A DNA stretch of 41,107 nt, from positions 1-41,107 of the forward strand of contig CACFXF010000015.1 in the NCBI GenBank assembly GCA_902570265.1. Direction: 5' to 3'. Shown here in pieces: positions 29,100-41,107 of this stretch. Each line of letters starts with the position of its first letter. Position 1 is the first letter of the stretch. The DNA comes from an uncultured Alphaproteobacteria bacterium. GTDB lineage: Bacteria > Pseudomonadota > Alphaproteobacteria > Rhodobacterales > Rhodobacteraceae. Made by a program: the position numbers and the translations under genes. The notes under the pieces were generated by a model. That model saw only the letters and a program-made list of their open reading frames with translations. It was not told the DNA's origin and made no database searches.

Positions 29100-30794
29100 A
29101 TGAAAAAAATAATACCAGAATTATATTCAACTGGTGAAAGTTTATATTATTACAGGGAAAAAGCACCTTCTTTAAAATCATTTGATTTAAATTTGCGTCA
29201 ATCCTGTGACTTAGATTTGCTTTTAGACGGTTCTTTTAATCCTTTAAATGGATTTCTTACAAAAAAAGAGTACATGTCAGTTTGTAAAAATATGCTTTTA
29301 CTTAATGGTGAATTATGGCCAATTCCAATAAATTTGGATGTTTCAAAAGAGTTTGCTGATACATTGGAATTAGGTGAAGAGATTTCCCTTAAGGATCAAG
29401 AGGGTGTAAATTTAGCAATACTTATTGTTGAAGATATATGGTATCCTGATAAGCTTTTTGAAGCAGAAAAAGTATTTGGTACTACAAATTCTGAGCATCC
29501 AGGAGTTAATTATCTGCTAAATAAATCTAAAAATGTTTATGTTGGTGGAAAAGTAATAGGTATAAACAAACCGAATTTTTATGACTTTAAACATTTAAGA
29601 AATTCACCAAATGAATTAAGACGTATATTCAATAAATTAGGTTGGTCCTCTATAGTTGCATTTCAAACTAGAAATCCCTTACATCGTGCTCATTTTGAAT
29701 TAACTTTAAGAGCTTCCTCTGAAAATGAAGCTAATTTATTAATTCATCCAGTGGTTGGAATGACTAAACCAGGAGACATTGATCATTTCACAAGAGTCAG
29801 ATGCTACGAGTCTATTTTAAAATATTATACAAAAACAACAACTTGTCTTTCACTATTAAACTTAGCTATGAGAATGGCAGGTCCTAAAGAAGCTATTCTT
29901 CATGGATTAATTAGAGCTAACTATGGATGTACTCATTTTATTGTAGGAAGAGATCATGCTGGACCAGGATTAAATTCAGACAAAGTTCCATTTTATCACG
30001 AGTATGAAGCTCAAGATCTATTTATACAGTTTCAAGATAAAATAAATATTCAATTGGTAAAATTCCAAAATTTTGTTTTTCTTGAAGATAAAGCCGAATA
30101 TGTTCCAATTAATCAGGTCTCTAAAAATTCAAGTATTATTGAAATATCAGGTACTGAATTACGAAGGAGACTTGATAAGGATCTAATTATACCTGAATGG
30201 TTCTCATTTCCAGAAGTTATAAAAGAATTAAAAAAAGCCAAGCCACCTTTACATAAAAAAGGATTTACAATATTTTTTACCGGCTTATCTGGTTCAGGTA
30301 AATCAACCATTGCTAATGCTCTAATAAATATGCTTCTAGAAATGGGAGATCGTTCTGTTACTTTGTTAGATGGAGATATTGTTAGGAAGAGGTTAAGTTC
30401 TGAACTAGGTTTTTCTAAAGAAGATAGAGACCTCAATATAAGAAGAATTGGTTTTGTAGCAACGGAAATTGTTAAAAATGGTGGTATTGCTATTTGTGCA
30501 CCAATTGCTCCATATCAAAAATCCCGGGATGATGTAAGAGAAGAGATTGAGGCTTTCGGATCTTTTATTGAGGTCTATTTATCAACACCATTAGAAATTT
30601 GTGAAAAAAGAGACAGAAAAGGATTATATAAGTTAGCAAGAGAAGGGAAAATTAAGGAATTTACTGGTATTTCAGATCCTTATGAAGTTCCCAAAAAACC
30701 TGAATTAATTTTAAATTCTGAAGATAAAAATGTTGAGTATTGTGCTTCTTTAATTATCTTAAAATTGAAGAGTTTAGGCTTGATTTTTGGATAA
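29100..30794 (+). CDS. Bifunctional sulfate adenylyltransferase/adenylylsulfate kinase
   Basis: 564 residues. N-terminal ATP sulfurylase of about 375 residues: QTRNPLHRAHFEL near 189 (QxRN and HxxH), GRDHAGPG near 283. C-terminal APS kinase: Walker A GLSGSGKST near 395-403, DGDIVRKRLSSELGFSKEDR with the APS-binding loop, and NGGIAICAPIAPY. It converts sulfate + ATP to APS and then APS + ATP to PAPS. The order Sat then CysC in one chain matches the alphaproteobacterial type. No PAPS reductase or sulfite reductase gene is in the window, so whether PAPS serves assimilation or sulfation cannot be settled here. cysQ follows. Confidence 0.96.
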   Translation: MKKIIPELYSTGESLYYYREKAPSLKSFDLNLRQSCDLDLLLDGSFNPLNGFLTKKEYMSVCKNMLLLNGELWPIPINLDVSKEFADTLELGEEISLKDQEGVNLAILIVEDIWYPDKLFEAEKVFGTTNSEHPGVNYLLNKSKNVYVGGKVIGINKPNFYDFKHLRNSPNELRRIFNKLGWSSIVAFQTRNPLHRAHFELTLRASSENEANLLIHPVVGMTKPGDIDHFTRVRCYESILKYYTKTTTCLSLLNLAMRMAGPKEAILHGLIRANYGCTHFIVGRDHAGPGLNSDKVPFYHEYEAQDLFIQFQDKINIQLVKFQNFVFLEDKAEYVPINQVSKNSSIIEISGTELRRRLDKDLIIPEWFSFPEVIKELKKAKPPLHKKGFTIFFTGLSGSGKSTIANALINMLLEMGDRSVTLLDGDIVRKRLSSELGFSKEDRDLNIRRIGFVATEIVKNGGIAICAPIAPYQKSRDDVREEIEAFGSFIEVYLSTPLEICEKRDRKGLYKLAREGKIKEFTGISDPYEVPKKPELILNSEDKNVEYCASLIILKLKSLGLIFG

Positions 30795-30834
30795 ATAATA
30801 ACTTTTGAAAGTTATGTATTTTGGAGATAAAGAT

Positions 30835-31611
30835 TTGAATTTAGAAAAATTAATTTTTAATTTAAAACCGGTAGTATTTGAAGCTGGAGATGCGATAATA
30901 GAAATCTATAAAAATGGAGCAAAAGCAGAATATAAGGAGGATGGTTCTCCAGTTACTATTGCTGACAGATTGTCAGAAGAAATAATTTTAAAGAGTTTAA
31001 ATTCTATTGCACCTAATATTCCTATTGTTAGTGAAGAAAATAGTATCAGTCATAAGAAAGTCTTTTCTGATGAATATTTTCTTGTAGATCCACTTGACGG
31101 AACAAAAGAGTTTTTAGATTTTAGTGGTTCTGGTGAGTTTACAGTTAACATTGGGTTAATTTCAAAAAATAGACCAATTATGGGAATTATCTATTCTCCA
31201 AATTCAGGACAATTGTATTATGGAATAAGTACAGAAGGTTCATTTTCTGAAAATAAAAATGGAGAAATTCTTAACTTAAAAGTTAAAAAAGGCGAAACTG
31301 ACGATATAATAGCTATTGCTAGTAAAAAACATTTGTCTTTAAAAACTGAGACATGGTTGGCTGATAGAAAAATAAAAAATATTATATCAGCAAGTTCTTC
31401 AATAAAATTTTGTGCGATTGCCAAAGGTGATGCTGACGTTTATCCAAGGTTTTCACCTACAATGGAATGGGATACGGCAGCAGGAGATGCAATTCTTACA
31501 GGAGCAGGAGGAAGAGTTACAGTAGGAGATTCTAATAAACCACTATTCTACGGAAAACCAAACTATAGAAATTTAGACTTTATTGCTTGGAGTAAACTCA
31601 AATTTTTTTGA
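30835..31611 (+). CDS. cysQ: 3'(2'),5'-bisphosphate nucleotidase CysQ
   Basis: I start at TTG 30835 because GGAG lies 8 bases before it and the product then begins NLEKLIFNLKPVVFEAGDAI, matching CysQ length (258 residues). Earlier starts at 30805 (TTG) and 30814 (ATG) are possible. Motifs: DGSPVTIADRLSE, VSEEN, VDPLDGTKEFLD (metal-binding) and MEWDTAAGDAIL. It hydrolyses PAP to AMP, removing the by-product of PAPS use. Located right after Sat-CysC, the expected context. Mg2+-dependent and Li+-sensitive by family. Confidence 0.94.
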   Translation: MNLEKLIFNLKPVVFEAGDAIIEIYKNGAKAEYKEDGSPVTIADRLSEEIILKSLNSIAPNIPIVSEENSISHKKVFSDEYFLVDPLDGTKEFLDFSGSGEFTVNIGLISKNRPIMGIIYSPNSGQLYYGISTEGSFSENKNGEILNLKVKKGETDDIIAIASKKHLSLKTETWLADRKIKNIISASSSIKFCAIAKGDADVYPRFSPTMEWDTAAGDAILTGAGGRVTVGDSNKPLFYGKPNYRNLDFIAWSKLKFF

Positions 31612-33761: not shown

Positions 33762-34367
33762 TTAGTCAATTAAAATTTGATATTGAATTTCGTTAATAAT
33801 GCGGTCCTCCCCATTTATAGGAACAATATCCATAGGACATACTGACATAACAACAATACAATCTATAATTGCTTCTAAAATTATAAAATCATTTTTTTTT
33901 GATAGAGGTGAAGAAAATGTAACATCGCCGTCATTATTAACTGGAATATTCATCCAAAGATTTAATGGGGAAGGGCATTCTTTAATTTTGTATCCTAATT
34001 TATCTAAGGAATTAAATAAATTATCTGTACAATTTTCATGATAACCATCGCAACCAAGCATTTGATATCGATAAGTATCACAAGCAGCAATTAGAGTATC
34101 ATGCCTACCAGGTGAAGTATCCGCCATAATGTGAAGAATTGGTTTTCTTTTGTTTGTGTATAAATATTCACCCTCTTTTGGAAATATAGAACTTGTAACT
34201 GCTCTATTATGTTCCATTGACATAAATTCGCCTACGTCATTTTGATTAAAACACCAAGTATCAACAACTTGCGTTCCATGTGTGTTGATAATTTTAATTT
34301 TTTGATTTTTTGATATTAAAACTGCTTTTGATTCTCTTGGTGGAATTGTAATCAAATTATTAGTCAT
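33762..34367 (-). CDS. DUF1989/urea-carboxylase-associated family protein
   Basis: 201 residues. The first 40 residues (ITIPPRESKAVLISKNQKIK) and the core SMEHNRAVTSSIFPKEG, GRHDTLIAACDTYRY, CPSPLNLWMNIPV and FIILEAIIDCIVVMSVCPMD are the DUF1989 signature. GRHDTLIAACD and the Cys-rich YHENCTDN probably form a metal or substrate site. Relatives are urea carboxylase-associated proteins UAAP1/2, some of which act in the carboxyguanidine/urea pathway as aminohydrolases. Its start overlaps the deaminase stop by 8 bases (ATGACTAA). It is the last gene of the leftward locus. Confidence 0.88.
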   Translation of the reverse strand: MTNNLITIPPRESKAVLISKNQKIKIINTHGTQVVDTWCFNQNDVGEFMSMEHNRAVTSSIFPKEGEYLYTNKRKPILHIMADTSPGRHDTLIAACDTYRYQMLGCDGYHENCTDNLFNSLDKLGYKIKECPSPLNLWMNIPVNNDGDVTFSSPLSKKNDFIILEAIIDCIVVMSVCPMDIVPINGEDRIINEIQYQILID

Positions 34368-34812
34368 CTTCTGCTATATCCTCTAGCCACAGCTCAGGTT
34401 TTTCTTTTATAAATTTGGACATTAATTCTATGCATTTTTTATCATTTGCAATAACAACATCAATACCTTTTGATATTAGAAACTTTTCATTTCCACCAAA
34501 TGTTTTATTTTCTCCAATTACTACTTTAGGAATACCAAATTGAACAATTGTACCACTACACATCATACAAGGACTTAAACTGGTGTACAAAACAGTATCT
34601 TTATATGTTTTTTGTCTTCCAGCTTTTCTTAAAGCATCCATTTCTCCATGTGCTATAGGATCTCCTTTCTGTACTCTTTGATTTCTACCCTGAGCTAAAA
34701 TTTCTCCATTTCTTGCTAATACTGAGCCAATAGGACATCCACCTTCAAGAAAACCTGCTTTTGCTTCATCATAAGCTACTTGCAACAATTTTTGATCAAT
34801 TTCACTAAGCAT
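34360..34812 (-). CDS. Cytosine deaminase, yeast FCY1 type (nucleoside deaminase family)
   Basis: 150 residues. The Zn site is His55-x-Glu57 (AHGEMDAL) and Cys82-x-x-Cys85 (LSPCMMC). After it, IVQFGIPKVVIGENKTFGGN and MSKFIKEKPELWLEDIAE follow yeast cytosine deaminase closely, including the W-x-E-D-I end that closes the active site. Proteins of this group deaminate cytosine, or 5-methylcytosine and related bases, rather than tRNA. The E. coli CodA amidohydrolase is unrelated. Translationally coupled to DUF1989. TadA is excluded because the TadA loop and C-terminus are absent. Confidence 0.88.
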   Translation of the reverse strand: MLSEIDQKLLQVAYDEAKAGFLEGGCPIGSVLARNGEILAQGRNQRVQKGDPIAHGEMDALRKAGRQKTYKDTVLYTSLSPCMMCSGTIVQFGIPKVVIGENKTFGGNEKFLISKGIDVVIANDKKCIELMSKFIKEKPELWLEDIAEDD

Positions 34813-34826
34813 TGGTAATTAAACTC

Positions 34827-35708
34827 CTATAAAATTTTTTTATGATAGTAGGGTAACTTTTCTACACTTGGCGTCCAAATACTTTGATTTTTTAAATCAT
34901 CCAAATATTTAATTATATCTTCCAGTTTAGCAAACCATACATTTTTTGTTTCAAGTGTGCTTTCTATCCAACTTTCAACCTGTTTCCATCTTGCAAGTCT
35001 TCCAGTTAAAAATGGATGAATAATTAACATGAAAAATCCACCAGCTTCGTATTGTGCTTCAAACTCTTCCCAAAAACCTAATAGTCCTTTTGAAGGTGCC
35101 TGTACAGGCATCATATATCCAATTTCTTCATAATGAGCAAATGGAGGCCAATCATCTGTTCCCCAATGAACAGGTATTTCATATAAATTTCCTTTTGGAG
35201 TTTTAATTTCATATGGTATATCATCTGCCATCATTGAGCTATCATATTTAAATTTATGTTCTATCATTAAGTCAATAACCTCATCCGTAATATTATAAAC
35301 TGGTGCTCTATAACCAATGGGATGTTTGCCACAAATTTGTTTGTGTATTTCTAGGGTTTTTTCAAACCATTCTCTTTGATTTCCATATGTTTTGATTGGG
35401 TCTTCATGTAAATATCCATGATGACCTATTTCATGTCCGTCATTTAATATATTTTCAATTTGATATTGATATTCTTTTAAACACCATCCAGGAATAAAAA
35501 ATGATTGTTTTAATCCAAACCTACGATATGTTTCTAAAATTCTTGGAATTGCTACATTCGGACCGTATTTGCCCATTGAAATAGGATATAACCTTTTAAA
35601 ACTATCATCTGGCTTAGAAATGTGGATTAAACTATCAGCATCCATATCAAAAGTTATTGATACGGCACATTTTGCATTGTCAGGCCAAGGTATAGGATTC
35701 CTTATCAT
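34827..35708 (-). CDS. Polysaccharide-deacetylase-fold amidohydrolase (PuuE-like)
   Basis: 293 residues of the NodB-fold. SITFDMDADS (Asp21-Asp23-Asp25), HEIGHHGYLHE (His92, His96, His97, His101) and GYRAPVYNIT near 150 are the metal-binding and active-site motifs. HWGTDDWPP and FMLIIHPFLTGR also fit the amidohydrolase branch. The absence of a signal peptide and the neighbours point to a cytoplasmic small-molecule amidohydrolase, such as allantoinase PuuE or a ureido-acid deacylase, rather than a polysaccharide enzyme. It lies 3 bases from the ABC ATPase gene. Substrate unproven. Confidence 0.82.
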   Translation of the reverse strand: MIRNPIPWPDNAKCAVSITFDMDADSLIHISKPDDSFKRLYPISMGKYGPNVAIPRILETYRRFGLKQSFFIPGWCLKEYQYQIENILNDGHEIGHHGYLHEDPIKTYGNQREWFEKTLEIHKQICGKHPIGYRAPVYNITDEVIDLMIEHKFKYDSSMMADDIPYEIKTPKGNLYEIPVHWGTDDWPPFAHYEEIGYMMPVQAPSKGLLGFWEEFEAQYEAGGFFMLIIHPFLTGRLARWKQVESWIESTLETKNVWFAKLEDIIKYLDDLKNQSIWTPSVEKLPYYHKKIL

Positions 35709-35711
35709 TTA

Positions 35712-36800
35712 TTATTCCTCAATTAAAACATGAACATTCTTTTCTGACCAACTTAACCAATATTTATTTCCATTTTGAATATTAAATTTAGAAAGTTCTC
35801 TTTCGGTAATTTGTATTTTGAATTCTGTACCATCTGTACTTTCTAAAAATAAGGTAACTATTGAACCTACATATTCTTCTGAAATTAATCGACAATTTAT
35901 AATATTTGATTTTTGTGGTTTTACCGAAGAAAAATTCATTAAGTCGGCCGAAATAATATAGTTTATTTTATCTCCTTTTTGTATAGGCTTATTCTTATCA
36001 AGTTGAAAATTAAAGCATCCTGCATTAGTTTTGATATAGGCGATATTTGATTTTATATCATAAACTTTGCCGCTTAGAATATTATTTCTTCCTACAAATT
36101 CTGCAACGAACCTGTTTGTTGGAGATCTATAGATATCTTTTGGAGTGCCAATTTGAGAAACTTCCCCAACATTCATAATTATTACTCTATCCGCCATTGC
36201 AAATGCTTCTGATTGTGAATGAGTTACGTAAACAAAAGTTATATCCAATTCTTTTTGTAATTGTGTAAGTACAGCTTGCATTCTGATTACTAGATGCGCA
36301 TCTAATGCTGATAGAGGCTCATCAAGAAGTAAAATTTCAGGTTCCATTACTAACGATCTTGCAAGAGCAACACGCTGTTTTTGACCGCCAGATAATGTTG
36401 ATATATCTCTTTTTGCAAGCTCTTTAACCTCTAATTTTTCAAGCCACTCTAAAGATTTTTTATTTCTTATTTTGGGACTTAAGCCCCTCATTTTAAGTCC
36501 AAATTCAACATTTTCTTGTACGTTTAAAAAAGGGAATAAAGCTAATGATTGCCATACTAAAGGTGTATCTCTTTCATGCGGTTTTACATTATTCATCAGA
36601 CGATTATTAAATCTTATTTCACCAGATGACGGTATTTCTAATCCAGCTAGCATTCTCAATGTTGTTGTTTTCCCACACCCTGAAGGTCCCATAATGGCAA
36701 GAAATTCTCCTTTTCCAATATCAAAATTAATATCTTTTACTGCTGGAATTTTTTCAAAGTTTTTACAAACATTTTTGAATGTTACTAGTTTATATGACAT
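35712..36800 (-). CDS. ABC transporter ATP-binding protein, PotA-type
   Basis: 362 residues. Walker A GPSGCGKTT, Q-loop VWQSLALFPF, signature LSGGQKQRVALARS, Walker B ILLLDEPLSALD and H-loop YVTHSQ are all intact. A TOBE-type C-terminal domain follows (about 240-362), typical of spermidine/putrescine, iron and opine ABC ATPases. It powers the two permeases encoded upstream; its ATG is adjacent to the permease stop. By family a polyamine importer; by neighbours a nitrogenous base importer is more likely. Confidence 0.93.
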   Translation of the reverse strand: MSYKLVTFKNVCKNFEKIPAVKDINFDIGKGEFLAIMGPSGCGKTTTLRMLAGLEIPSSGEIRFNNRLMNNVKPHERDTPLVWQSLALFPFLNVQENVEFGLKMRGLSPKIRNKKSLEWLEKLEVKELAKRDISTLSGGQKQRVALARSLVMEPEILLLDEPLSALDAHLVIRMQAVLTQLQKELDITFVYVTHSQSEAFAMADRVIIMNVGEVSQIGTPKDIYRSPTNRFVAEFVGRNNILSGKVYDIKSNIAYIKTNAGCFNFQLDKNKPIQKGDKINYIISADLMNFSSVKPQKSNIINCRLISEEYVGSIVTLFLESTDGTEFKIQITERELSKFNIQNGNKYWLSWSEKNVHVLIEE

Positions 36801-37601
36801 TTATTTATTTTTTCCTTTCATTTGCCAAGTTAAGAAAAAAATTTGTGCAGTGATTACTAATGTCATAGACGTGAAGAATACAAAAGTACCAATTGCATTA
36901 ACTTGAGGATCAATATTTCCTTGTACAATTTCAAGAATAATTACTGGTACAGTTTTATTTAATCCAGAAACAAACCATGAAATAGCAAATTCATCAAAAG
37001 AAACAGCTGCAGTTAAACAAAGTGATGAAATAATGGCTGGTTTACAATAAGGTAATATCACATAGCGCATTGTAGCCCACTCCGAGCCTCCCAAATTCCA
37101 TGCAGCTGATTCTAAATCCGGGTCGATTTGATTTAATCTTAGTCTAATAATAGCCATTGCAAATGGTGCTGTTAGTACACTGTGTGCACAAATAATTGAC
37201 CATAATTGACCTGACATCCCAATTTTAGAAAGCCAGGCTAACATAGCTAAGGCAAGAATTATTAATGGAATGGTAGGAGGTAATAAAACTAATGCTAAAT
37301 ATAAACCTTTAAATTTAAAACGGTAGCGGTAGTCTGAATATGCTGTACAGAAACCGAGAAAGGTCGCAAGTATACATGTTACTAGGGATACTATTACACT
37401 ATTGATTGCAGCTTGCCATACTCCAGGATCATTAAAAATTTTAATATACCATTCTAAAGAAAAATTACCTAATGGAATAGTAGGAAATCTTTGAGAATTA
37501 AAAGAAAAAATAACACTAAACGCTATTGGTGTGAAAATGAACACAAATATAAAAATCAAATATGTTATAAGAATAAAATTCAAATATTTTTCTTTGGTCA
37601 T
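36801..37601 (-). CDS. ABC transporter permease, PotC-type
   Basis: 266 residues with six membrane helices. The EAA loop is DLESAAWNLGGSEWATMRYV followed by ILPYCKPAI, the conserved contact site for the ATPase. FTPIAFSVIFSFNSQRFPTI in helix 1 and TAAVSFDEFAISWFVSGL near the end are typical of PotC. It overlaps the preceding permease gene by 4 bases (ATGA). Inner membrane; substrate as for the locus. Confidence 0.92.
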   Translation of the reverse strand: MTKEKYLNFILITYLIFIFVFIFTPIAFSVIFSFNSQRFPTIPLGNFSLEWYIKIFNDPGVWQAAINSVIVSLVTCILATFLGFCTAYSDYRYRFKFKGLYLALVLLPPTIPLIILALAMLAWLSKIGMSGQLWSIICAHSVLTAPFAMAIIRLRLNQIDPDLESAAWNLGGSEWATMRYVILPYCKPAIISSLCLTAAVSFDEFAISWFVSGLNKTVPVIILEIVQGNIDPQVNAIGTFVFFTSMTLVITAQIFFLTWQMKGKNK

Positions 37602-38455
37602 TTTTTAAAACTTTTTGAATATGCAGTCATTATTCCAATAAAAGCTATTGAAAACAAAGTTATCATCATTACAATCGCAACCACCGCAGCTCTTGGCCAT
37701 TGTTGCCCTGATTTTGTTGTGTCTAAAATTAAAATTGGTAATGTTGGTTCTTGAGACCCTCCAAGATAAAATGGGGCAACAAAATCACCAAACGACAAAA
37801 TAAAGCAAAATACCGCAGCGATAATAAAACCTGTTTTTGATAAGGGAATAATAACTCTTTGAATAATTGATTTTGGTTTACATCCCAGATTATAGGCTGC
37901 TTCTATCAAATTTCTATCAATATTGGCCATTGTTACTGTTTGTAAAATGATTACTAAAGGTAGAGTTAGAGTCATATAACCAACTAATGTTCCAATATGA
38001 GTATTTAGCATTTTGAAAGGGCCTAAATCTAAATAACTAAAAAAAGCATTAATCACACCCTTTTCAGCTAAAATAACATACCATGAAAAAGTACGGACTA
38101 GATAACTTGTAAAGAAAGGTATTATAAGCATAAAAATTGCCCATCTTCTAATATTATCTGAAACTTTAAAAGCTAAAGTGAAAGAAGCTGGAAAAGCTAT
38201 TAGCATTGTAAGTAATGTACTAGTTCCTGCAATAATAATAGTAAACCAGTAGCTATCCCAAAAATAGTTTTTTGAAAACATTTTTGTCCAATTAATGAAC
38301 TCAAATGCCTCAGTCATTCTATAATTTTTGACTAAAAAGAATGACATGGCAACCATGAATAAAACTGGACCAACAAAAAATAATAACTGCCAGATAATAA
38401 TAGGCAGCCTAAAAGTTAAGGAATAAATATTTAAATTATTTTTAGTAGGTTTCAT
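37598..38455 (-). CDS. ABC transporter permease, PotB-type
   Basis: 285 residues with six membrane helices and a cytoplasmic N-terminus. FFVGPVLFMVAMSFFLVKNY opens it, SYLVRTFSWYVILAEKGVIN is the loop, and IEAAYNLGCKPKSIIQRVII followed by PLSKTG is the EAA loop. DFVAPFYLGGSQEPT is typical of PotB. The ATG lies about 8 bases after the hairpin at 38464-38487 with no clear ribosome site, which suggests weak or controlled translation. It overlaps the next permease by 4 bases. Confidence 0.92.
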   Translation of the reverse strand: MKPTKNNLNIYSLTFRLPIIIWQLLFFVGPVLFMVAMSFFLVKNYRMTEAFEFINWTKMFSKNYFWDSYWFTIIIAGTSTLLTMLIAFPASFTLAFKVSDNIRRWAIFMLIIPFFTSYLVRTFSWYVILAEKGVINAFFSYLDLGPFKMLNTHIGTLVGYMTLTLPLVIILQTVTMANIDRNLIEAAYNLGCKPKSIIQRVIIPLSKTGFIIAAVFCFILSFGDFVAPFYLGGSQEPTLPILILDTTKSGQQWPRAAVVAIVMMITLFSIAFIGIMTAYSKSFKK

Positions 38456-38463
38456 ATTAAAAA

Positions 38464-38487
38464 AGGGCGATAAAAATATCGCCCTTG
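38464..38487 (-). terminator. Intra-operon hairpin/attenuator between binding-protein and permease genes
   Basis: AAGGGCGATA (38464-38473) and TATCGCCCTT (38478-38487) form a perfect 10-bp stem with a 4-base loop. On the minus strand it is followed by a short T-run and, within a few bases, the ATG of the PotB-type gene. Partial termination or 3' stabilisation would give excess binding protein over permeases, as in many ABC operons. Confidence 0.75.
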
Positions 38488-38496
38488 TATAATAAA

Positions 38497-39615
38497 TTAT
38501 GCGTTTTTATATTCGGACCAAAAGTCATTCCAATCTTCTAATGTTTGTTGTTTAGGAATATCTCTGTAATGAATTCGGCCGTCATTTATTAATGCAATAG
38601 GATCATTTGGCATACCTTCCATTTGATGGCTTCTTTTAGCTTCTTTTGGATCTGCCTCAATTAAAGCAGCTCTGCCTGCTTTAGTAATGCAAAACCCTGG
38701 GTAAGCGGCCATTTGTGCAGATTTAACTTGTCCAACTGGAGATAACATATAATTAATAAATTTTTTAATTATATCAACTTTATCAGTTCCTTTCCCAATG
38801 CAGTAACTTTCTGTCCATTGAATTCCACCTTCTTTAGGTATTACTGAACCTACAGGAGCACCATCTTTTTCTAATACACCAGTTATCCAGTCTCCAATAC
38901 CACACATTGCTAACATTTCTCCATTTTTTAAGGAATTGAATGTTCCACCATAATCAAAATATCCACCAACTTGAGATCGTAATGACATAGTTACATCTTG
39001 TACAGCCTGCCATTTTTTATTATCTAAATCCCACAATCCGGATCCATTACCTTTATATAAACTCATCATACCTAAATTTGGTAAGTGCCAATCGAAATGA
39101 CCAACTTTTCCTTTAACTTCTGGTTTCCAAAAACAAGAATAACTCTGTGCTTCCTCTTCTGATATGACAGTTTTATTATATGAAACACCCAAATGACCAC
39201 CTCTGACCATTACGGAATGAAGTTTTCCATTGGCCCAATGTCCAGGAAATTTTGTAAAATCTTCATGAAGCATGTCATCAAAAGGATAGTCTGAAGGTTC
39301 AAGATCTTCAATATAACCTGCCATATTTAATTGTTGAACAAATTCAGCGTCTGAAAGTATTATATCATAAGTTCCTGGTGGAGATTGAGCTATTAAAGCA
39401 AGCATATTGTCACCACCTGCATAATATTTAGGTACAAACTTTACATTGTTTGCCGCTTCAAATTCAGACACAATATCAGGCTCACCATGTCCATACCATG
39501 CGAGCATATTTAATTCTACCGTAGATGCCCAAGCACGACTAACAAACGGAATACTTAAAGCAGTAGCTCCTGACAATTTAAGAAAATTTCTTCTGTTATT
39601 TTTTTTTGTGGTCAT
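38497..39615 (-). CDS. Extracellular solute-binding protein, PotD-like, Tat-exported
   Basis: I start at ATG 39615 because GGGAGATAAAT stands before it and the product begins MTTKKNNRRNFLKLSGATAL, a twin-arginine signal with the RR-x-F-L-K motif. The frame's earlier ATG at 39660 would add 15 residues before the RR. 372 residues with a spermidine/putrescine-binding fold: LNMLAWYGHGEPDIVSEFEA, GTYDIILSDAEFVQQL and a late QVKSAQMAAYPGF block. Tat export implies folding before export, which fits a cofactor or a ligand loaded in the cytosol, or simple lineage preference. It is the first gene of the ABC operon and is followed by a hairpin. Confidence 0.91.
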   Translation of the reverse strand: MTTKKNNRRNFLKLSGATALSIPFVSRAWASTVELNMLAWYGHGEPDIVSEFEAANNVKFVPKYYAGGDNMLALIAQSPPGTYDIILSDAEFVQQLNMAGYIEDLEPSDYPFDDMLHEDFTKFPGHWANGKLHSVMVRGGHLGVSYNKTVISEEEAQSYSCFWKPEVKGKVGHFDWHLPNLGMMSLYKGNGSGLWDLDNKKWQAVQDVTMSLRSQVGGYFDYGGTFNSLKNGEMLAMCGIGDWITGVLEKDGAPVGSVIPKEGGIQWTESYCIGKGTDKVDIIKKFINYMLSPVGQVKSAQMAAYPGFCITKAGRAALIEADPKEAKRSHQMEGMPNDPIALINDGRIHYRDIPKQQTLEDWNDFWSEYKNA

Positions 39616-39788
39616 ATTTATCTCCCTGTTATTTATTGTGAAAACTAAACTTTCAAACAAATATGTAAGTTAACCTATTGATATAATAATTAAAGACTTG
39701 CTTATATTTACAATAAAAATATATTAGTTTTAGTTTATCATTTTTACAATCTGTTTTGATCTTTATTTTTTAAAATTAACAAAAAATT
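39616..39788. promoter_or_regulatory. Divergent promoter region of the ABC and BtpA operons
   Basis: This 173-base interval separates the divergent starts of the leftward ABC operon and the rightward BtpA/phosphoribosyltransferase pair, so it should hold both promoters and any shared regulator site. It is A/T-rich; no operator palindrome was recognised. The BtpA-type gene has no clear ribosome site. Confidence 0.5.
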
Positions 39789-40529
39789 ATGAAACGAATT
39801 GATTTTCATAAACTTTTTAAACAGATTGGTCCTGTTGTTCTTCCTGTTATTCACGTTAAAAATATTGTTCAAGTTATTAATAATATTGATAAAATTGTTG
39901 GAGAAGGTGCGCCAGGATGTTTTTTAATAAATCATGATTTTGGAATTGATGATTTTTTACCTATTATTAAAAAAGTACGCATTAAATTTCCTTATTTATG
40001 GTTATCAGTTAATTTTTTAGCTGAAACAGGAAAAGTTGCATTTCCTATATTATCTGACCTTAGTTCTCAAGGGTGTTTTATTGATGGATATTGGGGTGAT
40101 GATGCTTGTATAGACGAAAATGGGGTTAATATTGAAGCCAAAATAATTTCTAAAATTAGAAATGATACTGGTTGGAAAGGCTTATATTTTGGGGGTACTG
40201 CCTTTAAAAAACAAAGAATTATTCCACAGGAAAAATATGGAGATGCTGCAAAATATGCTACTCAATTTATGGATGTGGTAACAACCTCAGGAGTTGCTAC
40301 TGGAATTAAGGCTGATATCTCAAAAATTAAAACTTTTAGATCATGCATTGGTGATAGTGTACTTGCTATTGCATCTGGTATTACAGTTGATAATGCAAAA
40401 ATGTATTCTATTGCTGACTGTTTTATGGTAGCTACAGGTATTAATTATGAAAACGATTTTTATGAAATAGATCATAAAAAATTGTCAAAGTTATTACTTG
40501 TTTGTCGTCAAATAGGTATAGGTGAATAA
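39789..40529 (+). CDS. BtpA/SgcQ-family TIM-barrel protein
   Basis: 246 residues. GPVVLPVIHVKNIVQVINNI opens the barrel, GAPGCFLINHDFG follows, FGGTAFKKQRIIP sits in the middle, and DVVTTSGVATGIKAD, DSVLAIASGITVDN and DCFMVATGINYEND close it, the BtpA consensus. Cyanobacterial BtpA affects photosystem I assembly; SgcQ in enteric bacteria is in a sugar-phosphate operon. Here its partner is a phosphoribosyltransferase gene 2 bases downstream, which points to a ribose-phosphate or nucleobase-linked substrate bound at the barrel's phosphate site. The catalytic role is unknown. Confidence 0.82.
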   Translation: MKRIDFHKLFKQIGPVVLPVIHVKNIVQVINNIDKIVGEGAPGCFLINHDFGIDDFLPIIKKVRIKFPYLWLSVNFLAETGKVAFPILSDLSSQGCFIDGYWGDDACIDENGVNIEAKIISKIRNDTGWKGLYFGGTAFKKQRIIPQEKYGDAAKYATQFMDVVTTSGVATGIKADISKIKTFRSCIGDSVLAIASGITVDNAKMYSIADCFMVATGINYENDFYEIDHKKLSKLLLVCRQIGIGE

Positions 40530-40531
40530 TC

Positions 40532-41107
40532 ATGACAAAAAAAAATATAAAAGGAATGAGAGATAATCGTTGGTATTTAAATATTATGTCTCCTAATACA
40601 AAAGGTGAAAAATTTGCATGGCTTGATCCTACATCAATTTATATCAATACTAATGCTTTCATAGATCTTCTTGATGATTTGTTGGATGATCTTGAAGAAA
40701 TTGATTGTGATGTAGTTGCAGGAATTGATGCTATGGGTTTTGTATTAGGTTCAGCTCTAGCTGCAAGATTAAGAAAAGGATTTTTGCCTATTAGAAAAGC
40801 AGGTAAACTTTGTGTAGACACTAAAAAAGTAGATTTTGTCAATTATTCAAAAAGAAATCAATTTATGGAAATTAGATTTCCTGCATTTGAGGCAGGTGCA
40901 AAAGTTATTATTGTTGATCAATGGGTGGAAACTGGTGGAACAATGGGGGCTGCTATTAGATTAATCGAACAACAGGGTGGTTTAGTTAAGGGAGTAATAG
41001 CCTTGGCTATCGAAGAAAATGATAATACAAAGAAACTTAGAAACGATTATAAATGTTTTTCAGCTGTAGTCCCTGGTTCTGAATGGCAAAAACAGTGTAA
41101 CGAACAG
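40532..41107 (+). CDS. Adenine-phosphoribosyltransferase-like PRTase, 3' end outside window
   Basis: Open from ATG 40532 to the window end (192 codons, no stop). The PRPP-binding motif VIIVDQWVETGGTM lies at residues 125-138, with the acidic pair changed from the usual D-D to D-Q. AGIDAMGFVLGSALAARLRKGFLPIRKAGKL is the type I PRTase fold of APRT-like enzymes, in which the hood region is unusual. It should join a base to PRPP. The preceding N-terminal 60 residues (MRDNRWYLNIMSPNTKGEKF) are longer than in E. coli Apt. It is coupled to BtpA with a 2-base gap. Confidence 0.88.
   Translation, partial: MTKKNIKGMRDNRWYLNIMSPNTKGEKFAWLDPTSIYINTNAFIDLLDDLLDDLEEIDCDVVAGIDAMGFVLGSALAARLRKGFLPIRKAGKLCVDTKKVDFVNYSKRNQFMEIRFPAFEAGAKVIIVDQWVETGGTMGAAIRLIEQQGGLVKGVIALAIEENDNTKKLRNDYKCFSAVVPGSEWQKQCNEQ

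Follow-up and report, generated by a model that had tools for sequence, protein, structure and literature searches.

The window analyzed here is the whole of contig CACFXF010000015.1 (41,107 nucleotides; C15 below) from an uncultured member of the Rhodobacteraceae (GenBank assembly GCA_902570265.1; genome G000, 2.16 Mb, 81% complete). A nine-gene locus at its end probably allows the cell to take up and use cytosine or a close relative, i.e., a cytosine-type base or a compound yielding one. The leftward arm encodes a DUF1989 protein, a yeast-type (FCY1) cytosine deaminase, a NodB-fold amidohydrolase, and a four-subunit importer resembling PotABCD; the rightward arm encodes a BtpA-like barrel and a type I phosphoribosyltransferase (PRT). 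A sequence-only reading of the window had listed these parts and had proposed that a nitrogenous ring compound is imported, deaminated, and hydrolyzed, with a salvage branch. We confirmed all nine open frames, at the coordinates given below, and their families, with a weak BtpA label, a PRT truncated by the contig end, and a probably shifted start for the substrate-binding protein (SBP). Of the proposal, import and deamination are supported and can be narrowed to cytosine or a close relative; a named pathway is not supported.

We hypothesize that the importer would take up cytosine or a close relative and that the FCY1-type deaminase would convert cytosine to uracil, which could then enter the reductive (Pre/Pyd) pathway encoded on contig C8 or become UMP through the uracil phosphoribosyltransferase (UPRT) encoded on contig C9 of the same genome. 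Much as UMP synthase does, the BtpA-like barrel and the PRT would work together on a phosphoribosylated intermediate: the PRT would link a base to ribose-5-phosphate from phosphoribosyl pyrophosphate (PRPP), and the barrel would process the product. The NodB-fold and DUF1989 proteins would probably act on a side product or an alternative substrate, hydrolyzing a ring or C-N bond in it. In enteric bacteria, the codBA operon provides for cytosine uptake and deamination, and there, as proposed here, an importer is coupled to a uracil-making cytosine deaminase. Unlike codBA, the locus in the window has an ATP-driven PotABCD-like importer, a yeast-type deaminase, NodB and DUF1989 proteins, and a BtpA-PRT pair. 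Most likely, the locus is a new form of a cluster for taking up and using pyrimidine bases of the cytosine type. Dissolved nucleobases are a source of nitrogen and carbon in the sea, and the cluster is common to many marine and some soil bacteria; for what is likely a bacterial importer of cytosine-type compounds, now annotated as a polyamine transporter, it offers a sequence signature.

Deaminases at the locus and elsewhere in the genomes

The deaminase gene (positions 34360 to 34812, minus strand; 150 amino acids) matches dCMP_cyt_deam_1 with 81.7 bits (cut-off, 25), and its best matches in the Protein Data Bank (PDB) are yeast-type cytosine deaminases (E of about 1e-43). The PDB matches to tRNA deaminase (3e-15) and guanine deaminase (1e-12) were weaker, and identification as a TadA tRNA deaminase or a guanine deaminase was rejected. 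We compared ten FCY1 positions, which we take to include the zinc ligands (H62, C91, and C94), the catalytic residue (E64), and the cytosine contacts (N51, F114, W152, D155, and I156), together with G63; none of the ten is changed in the window protein or in 30 of 32 aligned relatives. This alignment draws on the 34 of 83 mapped loci in which FCY1 was counted, less a duplicate (L013) and a partial match (L037). The two exceptions are degenerate tandem paralogs that have lost zinc ligands, each adjoining an intact copy, in L092 and L101. In these gammaproteobacterial loci (L092:2165-2554 and L101:9101-9529), the deaminase-like protein without zinc ligands directly precedes the intact FCY1, an arrangement resembling an active/inactive pair. 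At the level of family and residues, the window protein is an FCY1-type cytosine deaminase, in agreement with the sequence-only reading. It has its family, zinc ligands, and cytosine-contact residues in common with yeast Fcy1 and differs in being bacterial and in lying in an operon with an importer. From family and residues, we infer that it would deaminate cytosine.

To place the locus among its relatives, we used an alignment-based scan of named genomes instead of a single-sequence scan with the BtpA protein, which had confirmed none. The alignment scan confirmed 216 relatives, and gene contexts were mapped for the best 80 of these; together with L013, L014, and L015, they make up the 83 mapped loci, of which 82 are distinct (L013 repeats L029; L023 is the record of genome G010 and L049 that of genome G001, and a single assembly is the source of L042 and L044). 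A gene was counted at a locus if tblastn matched it no more than 8.5 kb from BtpA, and loci with both transporter and flank present are termed full loci (n = 56; 55 distinct). A set of 394 family genomes was searched, the E thresholds being 1e-30 (FCY1), 1e-120 (CodA), and 1e-100 (strong match to BtpA). Profile searches gave a strong BtpA match in 15 of them; 20 further matches (E of 4e-10 to 1e-3), mostly to the C-terminal part, were left out of the count.

At eight loci (L015, L070, L076, L078, L091, L096, L097, and L098), an unrelated CodA-type deaminase stands in place of FCY1; the two that were scanned, from L015 and L091, scored 696 and 702 bits against the NCBIfam cytosine deaminase model PRK07572 (cut-off, 438). 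Full loci carry FCY1 in 33 cases, CodA in 7, neither in 16, and both in none, a lack of overlap with a chance of 0.001 once the duplicate is removed. The complementarity extends to deaminases encoded away from the locus. Among 18 genomes without a deaminase near the locus, 8 encode FCY1 elsewhere (at least 148 bits) and 10 encode CodA elsewhere (over the cut-off), and none encodes both or neither. These 18 represent 14 of the 16 deaminase-less full loci plus the transporter-less L055, L087, L099, and L100; outside them stand L057 and L048, the latter taken as the same record as G105:C12 and lacking both deaminases. In 6 of the 10 cases, the unlinked CodA lies in or beside a reductive pyrimidine (Pyd) cluster (L208, L212, L213, L214, L215, and L217). 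In the family set, which may overlap these 18 genomes, FCY1 occurs in 20 genomes and CodA in 133 (131 over the cut-off), together in none against 6.75 expected (P = 2e-4). Exactly one deaminase type is present in 14 of the 15 BtpA genomes (6 FCY1 and 8 CodA); either type occurs in 14/15 BtpA genomes versus 139/379 others (Fisher p = 1.2e-5), and FCY1 alone occurs in 6/15 versus 14/379 (p = 2.9e-5). Twenty FCY1 neighborhoods away from BtpA mostly have no telling neighbor; a nucleoside hydrolase, a PfkB kinase, and, by eye, a BMP-type importer accompany FCY1 in L196, NodB adjoins it in L182 and L185, and DUF1989 adjoins it in L195 and L197.

In two sister species within the window's own genus, the whole cassette is replaced. 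In G006, the interval from EamA to a hypoxanthine-type PRT gene holds a nucleoside-type importer of the PnrA/BMP type (PF02608 with two PF02653 permeases), CodA, and an MFS-like gene instead of the nine genes, and in G003 the same importer and CodA follow EamA on a contig that stops inside CodA. Of 11 sister genomes, 4 have a recognized EamA, and the slot is visible in five same-genus genomes including that of the window: three carry the window's cassette (G000, G001, and G010) and two carry importer plus CodA (G003 and G006). The slot between EamA and the hypoxanthine-type PRT thus holds alternative base-uptake cassettes within one genus. We count this replacement as the strongest sign that cytosine-type compounds are what both cassettes serve.

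Several observations weigh against a role in cytosine use. No deaminase is found nearby in 16 of the 56 full loci, and G105, a 99% complete genome with BtpA and NodB at its locus, has neither deaminase type. Five loci with at least 8 kb of flank (L014, L055, L087, L099, and L100) have BtpA without this transporter. The association statistics count related genomes and not independent events. Since 14 of the 20 FCY1 family genomes have no strong BtpA match, the deaminase is not specific to the locus, and CodA is so common by itself (133/394) that its presence in 8 of 15 BtpA genomes says little on its own. Searches for uracil-consuming enzymes do not discriminate, both enzymes being widespread: UPRT was over the cut-off in 16 of 17 genomes tested versus 11 of 14 controls, and dihydropyrimidinase was over it in 16/17 versus 2/14. 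Finally, plain cytosine import needs no NodB, BtpA, or PRT, and the true substrate may therefore be a modified or bound form.

The substrate could accordingly be a modified pyrimidine or a cytosine-releasing compound (acylated, methylated, or oxidized cytosine, or a nucleotide-like form), from which NodB or BtpA-PRT would first yield cytosine for a linked or unlinked deaminase. We regard this as rather unlikely, if deserving of appreciable weight. It would explain why importer, BtpA, and PRT make up the core, NodB being found no farther than 8.5 kb away in 47 of the 56 full loci, a frequency from which it follows that NodB matters, and it would explain why a cytosine deaminase is encoded in the genome even where it is absent from the locus. 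However, no gene indicates a particular modification, and neither DUF1989 nor NodB is constant. The reading that we prefer remains cytosine, or a close relative of it, as the compound taken up and used.

The importer and the conservation of its neighborhood

The importer genes lie on the minus strand and encode an ATPase (35712 to 36800; ABC_tran, 121.4 bits; cut-off, 25), a PotC-like permease (36801 to 37601) and a PotB/PotH-like permease (37598 to 38455) with BPD_transp_1 scores of 53.8 and 40.6 bits (cut-off, 26.4), and an SBP with a Tat-type signal (38497 to 39615; SBP_bac_8, 89.4 bits; cut-off, 27; TAT_signal_seq, 17.8 bits; cut-off, 16.7). The SBP frame is open to 39660, where its start is TTG; same-genus homologs begin 15 codons downstream, and the likely start by this comparison is near 39615.

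The sequence-only reading had warned that a PotABCD label would hide the pathway that it proposed. The importer is of Pot type, yet none of its subunits reaches any Pot equivalog cut-off (bits/cut-off: PotA, 324.7/482; PotC, 155/326; PotB, 103.3/348; PotH, 108.1/489; PotD, 56.6/582). Eleven PotD residues that we take to be spermidine contacts could be aligned to the SBP, which retains W255 and Y293, has E in place of D257, and differs at the other eight, including E36, D168, E171, and W229. In window numbering, G57, W191, and G254, which occupy the places of E36, D168, and W229, are kept in 51 of 51 aligned family members; in place of E171 these members have S, N, or T, and at W255 either W or F. 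The family is also constant (51/51) at D104, E106, H188-F189-D190-W191-H192, D257-W258, and E284. A true polyamine importer (PotABCD) that is a chance neighbor of nitrogen-metabolism genes is, in our view, very improbable. The top named families of the permeases and the SBP are indeed Pot proteins, and among solved structures those of PotD and PotF type proteins come closest in sequence; however, all four subunits fall far below the cut-offs, the family keeps other residues at the places of E36, D168, and W229, and the transporter stays with cytosine deaminase and PRT genes.

The neighborhood is conserved beyond this genome, in Alphaproteobacteria and some Gammaproteobacteria. Among the best 80 of the 216 relatives, BtpA was found in many Rhodobacteraceae, SAR116, Neomegalonema, Hyphomicrobiales, Geminicoccaceae, and Gammaproteobacteria (Granulosicoccaceae); a separate single-sequence search found the BtpA protein in 4 of 101 relatives, own genome included. 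The PRT stands beside BtpA in 81 of 83 loci (the misses are L076, at a contig end, and L099, which is real), and some part of the divergent transporter is present in 74; four of the nine transporter-less loci (L041, L054, L059, and L102) are short contigs or contig ends, and in the other five (L014, L055, L087, L099, and L100) the absence is real. A LysR-type regulator lies near 43 of the 83 loci, usually between the arms, and is not seen in the window's genus. A PRPP synthetase gene lies 3' of the PRT in four loci (L014, L065, L078, and L096).

The BtpA-PRT pair and the accessory hydrolases

The BtpA-like gene (39789 to 40529, plus strand) falls below both models of the BtpA/SgcQ family (PF03437, 27.1 versus 30 bits; TIGR00259, 29.7 versus 153.4 bits), even though its relatives are annotated as such. 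A PDB search with the BtpA sequence returned a single match (E = 0.5). In its predicted structure (pLDDT, 94), the nearest solved folds among the 50 matches listed are ribulose-phosphate epimerase, TrpA, and PcrB (TM, 0.55 to 0.66; 10 to 16% identity), which suggests a barrel of the phosphate-binding-type superfamily without pointing to a reaction. We describe it as a BtpA-like, phosphate-binding-type TIM barrel; the BtpA label that had been given from the sequence is weak. Two uncultured huge-phage records encode BtpA-like barrels with 34 to 37% identity (L202:5001-5681 in a 485-kb record and L203:5001-5573 in a 642-kb record), and tblastn with the window's PRT gave no match within 5 kb of them. 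On a Variovorax megaplasmid (L016:12995-14397), a BtpA-like protein with 32% identity, which does not reach the Pfam cut-off, adjoins a match to PRA isomerase, another phosphate-binding barrel.

The PRT gene follows after 2 bases (40532 to 41107, plus strand; Pribosyltran, PF00156, 44.0 bits; cut-off, 26.3). It is cut off by the end of C15 at base 41107, leaving 192 amino acids visible, compared with about 209 to 223 in same-genus relatives. It resembles adenine phosphoribosyltransferase (APRT; best APRT structure match, E = 2e-18). Membership in the APRT family itself is not supported: the protein scores below the APRT cut-off (TIGR01090, 97.5 versus 185.85 bits), and the acidic pair of its PRPP loop (VDQWVETGGTM) is D-Q, as in 50 of 50 aligned sequences.

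BtpA and PRT form one open frame in L092, L101, and L102, a natural fusion. The model of the L101 fusion has a pLDDT of 89 and, because its pTM is 0.67, an unsure relative placing of the domains. Its matches include APRTs and, with the whole fusion covered, UMP synthase of Leishmania at ranks 6 and 22; the alignment with the L. donovani enzyme (PDB 3qw4) spans 508 columns. The rigid-body fit to 3qw4 is poor (TM, 0.38 to 0.40; rmsd, 17 to 18 Å), so that agreement is confined to domain makeup and order, which in 3qw4 we take to be a phosphate-binding-type TIM barrel and then a type I PRT. Unlike UMP synthase, the barrel in the window has no match to OMP decarboxylase, and the PRT is below the orotate phosphoribosyltransferase (OPRT) cut-off (pyrE, 26.6 versus 106.8 bits). 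To our knowledge, there is no known phosphoribosyltransferase for cytosine. In UMP synthase, according to PMC9978035, the base is joined to PRPP and the nucleotide is then decarboxylated in the second domain. By analogy, and not by membership, this would be the likeliest mode of action of the BtpA-PRT pair. We tentatively suggest, as a possibility that is itself doubtful, a two-step module like UMP synthase that evolved apart from OPRT and OMP decarboxylase, in which an imported cytosine-related base would be linked to ribose-5-phosphate and the nucleotide then processed in the phosphate-binding barrel. If true, a cytosine-type PRT, or a phosphoribosyl-dependent step of ring degradation parallel to the URC pathway considered below, would be new biochemistry. 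Among the open-licence papers listed by literature searches, nothing was found on a BtpA-PRT pair or on an importer of this kind; the locus gives a concrete setting in which a BtpA-like barrel and its partner PRT, adjacent or fused, are tied to pyrimidine use.

The NodB-fold (CE4 superfamily) amidohydrolase (34827 to 35708, minus strand; Polysacc_deac_1, PF01522, 48.6 bits; cut-off, 23.1) had been called PuuE-like, a name that is not supported, its score being far below the PuuE cut-off (TIGR03212, 49.0 versus 424.6 bits). Its sequence kin in the PDB are 3rxz (E = 1e-52) and 3qbu (E = 6e-28), and we describe it as cyclic-imidase-like. The DUF1989 protein (33762 to 34367, minus strand; 201 amino acids) was recognized correctly (PF09347, 159.4 bits; cut-off, 27; PDB 3oru, E = 6e-58). 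At 17 of the 83 loci it is found no more than 8.5 kb from BtpA, and it is an optional, accessory part of the locus. It scores below both urea carboxylase-associated families, UAAP1 and UAAP2 (TIGR03424, 98.4 versus 284.7; TIGR03425, 54.7 versus 205.95), which we take to be the subunits of carboxyguanidine deiminase; here there is a single gene versus two subunits.

Plasmids of Aminobacter, Phyllobacterium, Alisedimentitalea, and Leisingera carry NodB relatives with 60 to 64% identity, accompanied by DUF1989 (annotated as urea carboxylase-associated), an amidase, and an NAD(P)H-dependent reductase. The importers near these modules (L019 to L022) vary among Pot-type, BMP-type, and an annotated cytosine permease. 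The modules look like another N-heterocycle pathway, and we rejected them as the same pathway as that of the window, as only parts are in common. They lend some support to the view that the locus is a general operon for degrading N-heterocycles (hydantoin, imide, or ureide), in which NodB and DUF1989 would carry out the main chemistry and the deaminase would act on another amino ring, such as that of creatinine. NodB-fold relatives do include cyclic imidases, and HP0310 itself was inactive on the compounds that its authors tried (PMC9304392 and PMC3084791). However, NodB is missing from 9 and DUF1989 from 40 of the 56 full loci, the locus in the window is without amidase or reductase, and two deaminase families as well as linkage to Pyd and URC genes point to a pyrimidine. 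We consider such an operon quite improbable and retain cytosine or a close relative as the probable substrate.

Uracil-consuming genes and the flanks of the locus

Contig C8 of G000 encodes PreT, PreA, a dihydropyrimidinase, an M20 amidohydrolase, and an NMT1-type importer. Reductive pyrimidine catabolism (PreT-PreA, dihydropyrimidinase, and beta-ureidopropionase) would use the uracil made by the deaminase, from this separate locus. Another route to uracil degradation is found next to the locus in four relatives (L038, L072, L074, and L082), where homologs of URC1 (GTP cyclohydrolase II, PRK07198), URC4 (DUF1688), and UPRT of Lachancea kluyveri lie past the deaminase, with a RutR-type regulator in L072, L074, and L082. 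For that yeast, PMC7530994 describes the degradation of uracil through ribosylated intermediates. We rejected URC as the pathway of G000: URC4 was not found in that genome, which is 81% complete, and is present in 2 of 394 family genomes. UPRT also lies near the BtpA-PRT pair in L039, L092, and L101.

Spacing at the locus is operon-like, the genes of the leftward arm overlapping or standing 0 to 41 bases apart. Scans of the window with Rfam (at the gathering threshold) and for tRNAs found nothing, and promoter and terminator scans gave no result. In the same-genus genomes G010 (L011) and G001 (L012), the gene order and the left flank, from ATP sulfurylase to EamA, are as in the window, and the PRT is followed on its 3' side by a hypoxanthine-type PRT, a sugar kinase, a LysE-type exporter, an SDR, and GltB (named by eye). 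Contig C44 of G000 very likely follows C15, since its sequence starts inside this hypoxanthine-type PRT gene and the genes that come next have the order seen in G010 and G001. On the left, positions 29100 to 31611 hold a fused ATP sulfurylase-APS kinase and then a CysQ-like phosphatase (named by eye), a neighbor that is conserved in the genus.

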